NCBI RefSeq assembly: GCF_030060925.1
Contig: NZ_CP045455.1
Location: forward strand, 1,054,001 to 1,118,000
Length of the DNA stretch: 64,000 nt
Direction of reading: 5' to 3'
Source of the DNA: Spiroplasma sp. SV19
GTDB taxonomy: Bacteria; Bacillota_I; Bacilli_A; Mycoplasmatales; Mycoplasmataceae
Under the pieces are notes generated by a model. The model did no database searches and was not told where the DNA came from. It saw nothing but the letters and a program-made list of their open reading frames with translations. The translations under genes and the position numbers were made by a program. Shown here in pieces: positions 28,407 to 30,922 of this stretch (position 1 is its first letter; each line of letters opens with the position of its first letter).

Positions 28407-29201
28407 ATGAATTTGCCATTATTACGGATTGTTAGTAAATATTGATTTAAATCATTACATACTTATTTAATAACATTAGTTTTGCCCGTGCTACTATACT
28501 TTATTAGTGTTCGTGTTACTAATATGTTTAATAGTAATGCTAGTTATTTAGCATTACCAGGGTCAATTTTGCTGGTTGGTGTTTTAAATGGAATTCTTGA
28601 TTTATCAATTGCTTTTTATGAATTCCGAAAAACAAGTTTTGCTCGGCAACTACATTTATTAAAAGCATCAATGTATCAATTAGTTTTTGTTTTAATTTTA
28701 ATTAATGTGATTACTAGTTTAGTCGGATCATTATGATTATTTTTAATTGCTTTTCTAAGTTATGGCGAAGCAATTCATGTTGAATGAATTAACTGGTTTA
28801 GTTTTTTTTGAGCAATTATTTTAGGATCTTTAGTTGCTTCTTTAATTGGAATTTTAGTTGCTCTTTGTTCGAACGATTTAAAAGTTATTTTAGTAACTGC
28901 AATTACTGTTTTTTTAGTTTTTGCTTTTTTAGCAGGATTGTTTTTTCCCCTTGGGGTTGTTCGTAGTGATAAAATTTTAAATATTATTGGTTATTTATTA
29001 GTACCAAGTTATTCATCGTCAATTATGGGAAGTGCGTTCTTTTGATCAGTTCCGGAATGAATTTTAGATTCTAATCTATATCCAAATTTAACATATTTTG
29101 CTGAATTACATAATATTTGATTACCAAGTTTAATTAGTCTTACTTCTGGTCTTGCTTTTTTTAGTTTAATTTTTGTAATTAATTATTATCAAGATAAATA
29201 A
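28407..29201 (+). CDS. ABC-2 type permease-like membrane protein
   Basis: A 264-aa membrane protein with about six hydrophobic helices. An N-terminal SKYWFKSLHTYLITLVLPVLLYFISV, a second helix LPGSILLVGVLNGILDL and a central KSSFARQ-like linker (FRKTSFARQLHLLKAS) match ABC-2 transporter permeases, but no ATPase gene is adjacent. An AAGGAG site precedes the ATG. It follows the cyclo-ligase by 17 bases, so it probably ends the suf transcript; the cobalamin riboswitch begins 40 bases after its stop. Function unknown. Confidence 0.75.
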
Positions 29202-29240
29202 AATATGATATGATATTTTTAGACAATTTAATATATAGTT

Positions 29241-29413
29241 ATTTAGAGTTAGGGAATGAAGTGCAAATCTTGAGCTGTCCCAGCAACTGTGATATGGACG
29301 AACACCATAAGCCACTGAAAATATTTTTTGGGAAGGCGGTTAGTAGGATGAAGTTAAGCCAGTAGACCTTTCTAAATTTAATTAGTCTTATTATATAACT
29401 CCTGGGTGTGAGT
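29241..29413 (+). promoter_or_regulatory. cobalamin (B12) riboswitch with P13 hairpin
   Basis: An RNA element with the hallmarks of the cobalamin riboswitch. In order: P1 arm ATTTAGA (29241-29247) paired with TCTAAAT (29371-29377); AGGGAATGAAGTGCAAATC and GAGCTGTCCCAGCAACTGT in the core; hairpin P5 ATGG-ACGAACA-CCAT; GCCACTG, then GGGAAG; GATGAAGTTAAGCC; and the B12 box AAGCCAGTAGACC. Downstream, ACTC and GAGT (29398-29413) enclose a loop GGTGT that can pair with the ACAC of L5, the kissing loop used by these switches. A terminator follows at 29457-29482, so binding would shut off the lipoprotein gene at 29545. E. coli btuB and other known examples share the core in the same order. Confidence 0.9.
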
Positions 29414-29456
29414 CATGTAATTATTTTGCAAACAAATAATTTAATGATTGTTATAT

Positions 29457-29482
29457 AAAAAGCATTTTGGGAATGCTTTTTT
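29457..29482 (+). terminator. terminator of the riboswitch expression platform
   Basis: AAAAAGCATT pairs with AATGCTTTTT over a 5-base loop with trailing T. It sits between the riboswitch and the lipoprotein start codon, so transcription must pass it to reach that gene. A second possible hairpin (AATTATTT / AAATAATT, about 29421-29441) may act as the competing antiterminator element. Confidence 0.7.
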
Positions 29483-29544: not shown

Positions 29545-30528
29545 ATGAAAAAAATACTAATGGTGCTATTGAGTAGTGCATTTATTTTGTCTCCAACTGC
29601 CACAATTATTGCTTGTAAAAATATTGATGAGTTTATTTCATATCAAGATCCAGATTGGATTTATCAGATGAAAACTGCTGCATCAGAGCAATTTACCGTT
29701 GGTTATGATAATTATTATTTACCATCGGCAAGAAGTAGCATTCAAAAAGACAATTGGTTAGATCTTAACCAAGAAAGTCATGTTTATGTCTATTTTAAGA
29801 ATATTACCAATATTGATGAAGTGATGAAAAAGTTATCATTTGGTGATACTGCTAATATGCGACTTGTAACTCAGATTTATGAGCCAATAATATTTACTAA
29901 AACCAATAATGGTATGTATATTTCTGATCCCTTTTTAACACAAAATACGGCTGTTGGAGAATATACAATGATGGCACAAGATAAGTGACAAGACATTAAA
30001 AATAGCAAAAATATGAAGCAATTAAATGATCGCTTTCAAAAAGAGTTTGAACAATATGGAACAATTGCTGATTCGCATCCAGTTCAAGGAGTAAATGGAA
30101 CAAAATTTGTATGATGAGACTCAAATCGATGAGAGAGCTTATTGCAAACAGATATTCAAAAGGCAATTTATGGTGTTTGAAGTAGCACTGAAAACAAAAT
30201 TCAAGTGGGAATGAACATTCCATTAAGCCTTGTAAGTAAAGGTTCAATCAAAGTGTCCAAGACAGATGTCCAAAATGTATTTCGGATTGATTTAAATTAT
30301 CAAGAAGATTGAATAAATAATAGCTTTAACAAAATAAAATACCTACTACCCCACTGAGGTTTTTATTTTAAAATTAAAGGTGAAAATAATGCCCAATATG
30401 TTTCACCACAACTAATTCCTGCAATTAATAATGCCTTTCGTGCGTCTAACATTTTGACATATTTAAAATCAAAAAAAGTAAATTCTTTTAATACTGAAGG
30501 TTATAAAAATGCCAAAATAATTTCATAG
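29545..30528 (+). CDS. lipoprotein under cobalamin-riboswitch control
   Basis: A 327-aa surface lipoprotein: MKKILMVLLSSAFIL then lipobox IIACK (Cys 24). The mature protein contains FISYQDPDWIYQMKTAASEQ and several Trp-rich strands (many TGA-encoded). No known domain was recognised, and it does not look like BtuF. Because the B12 riboswitch and terminator lie directly upstream, it may bind or import cobalamin or a cobalamin-linked compound; this is inference from regulation. The ribosome site is weak. A small membrane protein follows but has its own possible TATAAT at 30537-30542. Confidence 0.85.
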
Positions 30529-30571: not shown

Positions 30572-30922
30572 ATGAAAAATTTGACATGACCAAAGATTTT
30601 AATGTTTATTGGTGCGGCTTGAATTATTATAATTGGAATCTTGTTTGCAGCAGGTGTTCCAACAAAAACTTCAATTTATGGTTGAGATACAAGTTGACCA
30701 GTATTACTGATTCTAGGGATTTTATATATTTTAGTTCCGCTATCAGTTAAACCGGGATTTTGATCACTATTGTGAGCTTTAGCAATTACTAGTTTAGCAG
30801 TCATTTTCCTAATTGGATTCTTTGTTAAAGCAGATTATCAATCACCCTGAACTTATTTAGGGGCCATACCTAATCTTTTCATTGGAGTTGGAGCATTAGG
30901 TTGGATTTTTGTCCATGAATAA
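30572..30922 (+). CDS. small membrane protein, unknown
   Basis: A 116-aa protein with four predicted TM helices (ILMFIGAAWIIIIGILFAAG; the WPVLLILGILYILVPLS region; a helix around LALAITSLAVIF; and NLFIGVGALGWIF). No charged residues inside the helices and no known family. GAAAGGAG lies 8 bases before the ATG. Eight TGA codons would break it in the standard code. It could be a membrane partner of the preceding lipoprotein, but a TATAAT between the two genes suggests independent transcription as well. Confidence 0.78.

Follow-up and report, generated by a model that had tools for sequence, protein, structure and literature searches.

A cobalamin riboswitch upstream of a Spiroplasma lipoprotein gene and its probable place in a vitamin B12 regulon

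Mollicutes are usually regarded as B12-free. The locus studied here, within a stretch of 64,000 nucleotides from the genome of Spiroplasma sp. SV19 (the window; positions are counted from its first letter), raises the question of what a cobalamin riboswitch would control in such an organism, and what the lipoprotein encoded behind it would do. The SV19 genome (G000) is a single contig (C1) of 1.46 Mb in which TGA is read as tryptophan. The reading that we regard as fairly probable is that the element acts as an OFF switch in a Spiroplasma B12 regulon, and that the lipoprotein is a surface accessory for corrinoid capture or uptake serving NrdJ, the adenosylcobalamin (AdoCbl)-dependent class II ribonucleotide reductase.

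The window element is, on its sequence features, a genuine cobalamin riboswitch of a known kind, with cobalamin as its presumed ligand, as the first-pass annotation of this DNA had claimed. The covariance-model search gave a significant match (cmscan, E 3.5e-20), positions 29204-29389 of the plus strand covering the RF00174 model in full (1-189 of 189) at 87.3 bits against a gathering cut-off of 31.5, and the same interval was recovered again in a whole-genome RF00174 search. The core motifs AGGGAA (29251-29256), GTGCAAATC (29261-29269), GCTGTCCCAGC (29274-29284) and GCCACTG (29311-29317), as well as the B12 box GCCAGTAGACC (29358-29368), were located where that annotation had placed them, while its start at 29241 falls inside the element, which begins at 29204.

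The P13 hairpin (ACTC-CTGGGTGT-GAGT, 29398-29413, plus strand) was likewise present as described, but the kissing pair assigned to it, ACAC of L5 with GGTGT, had been misassigned. ACACC and GGTGT are present by letters in the window, but this pairing is lost in most relatives and its score was reached by 1064 of 2000 permutations over 46 sites, as expected by chance. The conserved pair joins CCCAG on the L5 side (29279-29283, plus strand) to its in-register complement CTGGG in the P13 loop (29402-29406). Nearly all sites displayed CTGG or CTGGG in L13 and CCAG or CCCAG in L5, and elements of the type found at 928285 carried a compensatory CCTAG/CTAGG pair. Over 45 sites (14 distinct pairs, partners shuffled), in-register pairing averaged 5.43 bp against 4.66 bp in permuted pairs, and 5 of 5000 permutations reached 5.43, a figure to be read as a guide rather than a probability since the sites share descent and the loops were located by motif patterns.

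The expression platform contains an intrinsic terminator at 29457-29482 of the plus strand (AAAAAGCATTTTGGGAATGCTTTTTT), made of a stem of 11 bp with a T run behind it, and with a folding energy of -8.6 kcal/mol; its z-score is -4.0, and no shuffled sequence out of 200 was equally stable. It leaves 62 bases before the start of the lipoprotein gene at 29545, in line with the roughly 60 bases noted earlier, and is missing from the list of the pattern scanner because that program demands at least three G-C pairs. No antiterminator emerged when the leader was folded: the terminator was predicted with and without P13 forced, and a 9-base helix (TTATATAAC/GTTATATAA) that competes with P13 leaves it in place. 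As no antiterminator was found, we infer the direction of control, a transcription-terminating OFF switch, from the class to which the riboswitch belongs and from the genes behind it. With AdoCbl scarce, the leader would be read through and the lipoprotein made together with the small membrane protein encoded after it; with AdoCbl plentiful, the L5-L13 kissing loop would form and the terminator would stop the transcript. The window element thus resembles its class in the B12 box, the P13 hairpin with a co-varying kissing loop and the downstream terminator, and differs from it in having an uncharacterised Spiroplasma lipoprotein as target and no antiterminator found by folding.

The open reading frame of the lipoprotein (29545-30528, plus strand) was confirmed and encodes 327 amino acids under code 4. 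The protein carries a lipoprotein-type signal peptide whose cysteine, Cys24, is invariant in six homologues. Searches of Pfam, NCBIfam and PDB returned no family, no convincing match and no known corrinoid-binding family, bearing out the earlier remark that no B12 domain is recognised in it; a DUF4430 identity was also considered and is unsupported, with no match to that family. An AlphaFold prediction from the window protein with pieces from S. poulsonii and S. phoeniceum reached a pLDDT of 31, failing because the relatives' input sequences were broken fragments only. The small membrane protein (116 amino acids, 30572-30922, plus strand) lies 3' of the lipoprotein gene, and an ABC-2-type permease (28407-29201, plus strand), assigned by ABC2_membrane matches and synteny, lies 5' of the riboswitch. 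The window permease matched ABC2_membrane at 1.8e-4, below the Pfam cut-off, and one homologue at 2.7e-7.

The premise that a mollicute would not depend on B12 proved wrong for SV19, which encodes NrdJ, the adenosyltransferase BtuR (PF02572) and a CbrT homologue, with no other reductase found. NrdJ scored 1314 bits with NF005991 (cut-off 854) and 559 with TIGR02504 (cut-off 400). It was the only ribonucleotide reductase large subunit found in this genome, in a search that picked up NrdE elsewhere, and profile searches found neither NrdF nor NrdD in the genome, which is rated 99.98% complete. The CbrT homologue (C1:1351998-1352498) is an S-component match whose family matches 6FNP_A, an experimentally shown B12 S-component (E 6.9e-14), and EcfT of the energising module (PF02361) is encoded at C1:683123-683830. 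The vitamin would serve NrdJ, the sole reductase found in SV19. CbrT was present in 19 of the 20 NrdJ-bearing genomes, and its only strong matches outside them came from one genome (G045) whose NrdJ is broken; a family of DUF4430-like proteins showed nearly the same distribution. A CbrT/DUF4430-like fusion suggested by eye in G004 was unsupported by profile comparison. No PduO-type adenosyltransferase was found among the 60 genomes.

The single NrdJ-bearing exception, S. poulsonii MSRO_BK (G022), has intact NrdJ and BtuR, and CbrT was not found genome-wide (loci L048, L050, L086, L091). The DUF4430-like gene behind one of its switches matches over its first 34 residues only, and the B12 uptake side of this genome seems to be decaying.

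Four RF00174 elements were found in SV19 by whole-genome search. One precedes a DUF4430-like protein and the CbrT homologue, whose neighbour nrdJ runs convergently; the window element precedes the lipoprotein and the small membrane protein; a third (C1:377426-377597, minus strand, L034) precedes a deoxynucleoside-salvage operon; and the fourth (C1:928285-928451, minus strand, L035) precedes a secreted DUF4430-like protein, a lipoprotein unrelated to that of the window and an ABC-ATPase-like gene. The salvage operon comprises deoD, a deoxynucleoside kinase, a transketolase (assigned by eye), a KDPG-type aldolase and a deoxyribosyltransferase-like gene, and is also switch-led in seven relatives (G015, G017, G018, G020, G022, G023, G025). 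DUF4430 (PF14478) gave weak matches for three of the eight small proteins behind switches (best 9e-4). Of the switches other than that of the window, one would control a transporter (DUF4430-like protein with CbrT), one a further locus with a putative role in capture, and one the salvage operon, which could supply deoxynucleotides without B12. Elsewhere in the window, positions 939-1895 encode a membrane protein that resembles ECF S-components and matches the folate-family model TIGR04518 weakly, below its cut-off.

Since the window switch is one of four, and since the only detectable reductase needs B12, the lipoprotein probably takes part in B12 uptake, and its distribution is consistent with that role. 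Intact homologues were found in six genomes (G000, G014, G016, G018, G023, G026), all bearing NrdJ. Broken copies were found in G015, G017 and G020 (S. phoeniceum P40), all without NrdJ, and in G022, where NrdJ is present and the lipoprotein is frameshifted; in G019, also NrdJ-bearing, no full copy was detectable. As these last two genomes display, the lipoprotein is non-essential for B12 use. Within the genus, six of eight NrdJ-bearing species and none of six NrdJ-lacking species had an intact copy (Fisher 0.0097, a test that, as for all our gene co-occurrences, ignores phylogeny). The remaining genomes searched gave nothing beyond signal-peptide matches; the family is restricted to one genus. 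A common origin of the switch-linked lipoproteins was also tried and rejected, only their signal peptides aligning with the window lipoprotein.

Gene order points the same way. In G016 a single operon holds a switch, a DUF4430-like gene, cbrT and a lipoprotein homologue (34% identity to the window protein), the genes lying 3-4 and 11-12 bases apart. Homologues of the small membrane protein, 68-98% identical, follow the lipoprotein in G014, G015, G017, G018, G020, G023 and G026. The switch stands between the permease and the lipoprotein in G000, G018 and G023, and the order in G014 and G026 is switch, permease, lipoprotein and small membrane protein; these arrangements tie the three genes to one another and to B12. 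The partner of the lipoprotein would be an ECF transporter of the CbrT type, perhaps joined by the permease encoded nearby. The first-pass proposal of a cobalamin-binding or uptake function for the lipoprotein is accordingly supported by its regulation, by the G016 operon and by its loss along with NrdJ, although no B12-binding domain was found in it; the proposal that the small membrane protein belongs to the same system has constant adjacency to the lipoprotein as its sole support.

A role in B12 capture, likely as it appears from these comparisons, has to be weighed against other functions for a gene under a B12 switch. The lipoprotein could serve a B12-independent bypass, capturing deoxynucleosides, DNA or nucleobases when B12 runs short, and the RF00174 element in front of the SV19 salvage operon does place bypass genes in the same regulon. 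We nevertheless consider this unlikely: the NrdJ-lacking G015, G017 and G020 retain the switch-led salvage operon and have lost the lipoprotein, which weakens the link between the two, and the G016 homologue sits in the CbrT operon, away from salvage genes. A comparably low probability is given to a host-facing surface protein for which the B12 level would be a mere cue of the host compartment, with no handling of B12 itself. Confinement of the family to one genus and its lack of any known domain would suit such a protein, as Spiroplasma genomes are rich in fast-evolving lipoproteins; its co-loss with NrdJ, its operon link to CbrT, the small membrane protein always alongside and the permease present in most relatives speak against it.

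A third alternative would see in the riboswitch a decaying relic that regulates nothing in SV19, as RF00174 remnants before nrdF in four NrdJ-lacking genomes (G033, G038, G039, G040) and the persistence of elements in several NrdJ-lacking species might suggest. This seems very improbable for an aptamer that is full length at 87 bits, with kissing pair and terminator intact and an open gene downstream, in a genome where NrdJ, BtuR and CbrT are all present. Corrinoid capture in the service of NrdJ is therefore retained as the preferred function. Only tentatively, and with rather less confidence than an even chance would warrant, we extend it to a wider proposal: that wall-less bacteria have a new type of surface system for corrinoid capture or transport, with no relation to BtuF, composed of the lipoprotein, the small membrane protein and the permease of ABC-2 type, and that in SV19 NrdJ makes the DNA precursors with switch-controlled salvage as the only fallback.

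The system can be compared with that of Lactobacillus delbrueckii, in which ECF-CbrT has been shown to transport cobalamin and is encoded in a cluster nrdJ-cbrS-cbrT-pduO (PMC5997447). Spiroplasma likewise has a CbrT homologue, beside nrdJ in several genomes, and the same logic of a B12 auxotroph. In contrast, its adenosyltransferase is of the BtuR rather than the PduO type, its cbrT is preceded by a DUF4430-like gene, and the genus of the window adds lipoprotein families without known relatives. DUF4430 is mentioned in a study of animal B12 binders (PMC4350170). Streptomyces coelicolor, which also has NrdJ, carries a B12 riboswitch on nrdABS (Borovok et al. 2006, as reported in PMC4991794), that is, on a B12-independent route to deoxynucleotides, and nrdFIE (class Ib) and nrdDG (class III) take this place in Spiroplasma relatives, where switches were found 5' of both as well as of the deoxynucleoside-salvage operon. 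SV19 differs in that no class I or class III enzyme was found and a switch controls deoxynucleoside salvage instead, so that B12 appears to govern salvage rather than an alternative reductase. Searches of the open-access literature found no paper linking Spiroplasma with a cobalamin riboswitch, none that connects such a riboswitch to a deoxynucleoside kinase, and, as far as titles and abstracts tell, nothing on such a circuit in work that combines Spiroplasma with either cobalamin or a class II reductase.

As far as gene content can tell, Spiroplasma sp. SV19 appears to have a B12 circuit that serves class II ribonucleotide reduction, with salvage as an apparent fallback. B12 appears to be tied to DNA synthesis in this genus through a circuit of switch, uptake and enzyme that has been gradually lost in some species; B12 would be predicted to limit the growth of species with NrdJ only, and the lipoprotein is a new candidate corrinoid-binding family.

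RF00174 matches were found in 25 of the 60 genomes of the family (21 with matches above cut-off) and in 43 of 320 genomes of the whole order. Five genomes in which NrdJ was not found (G015, G017, G020, G021, G025) have elements above cut-off, mainly before the salvage operon. The nrdF remnants of G033, G038, G039 and G040 (L078-L081) are sub-threshold, as if the switch decays after the B12 enzyme has been lost. NrdJ, BtuR, CbrT and DUF4430-like genes occur with no RF00174 match in five other genomes (G047, G048, G049, G056, G059), in the first three of which they are compactly clustered. Further from Spiroplasma, RF00174 elements were encountered in families f9 and f11 of the order (G305-G319), with one or two per genome.
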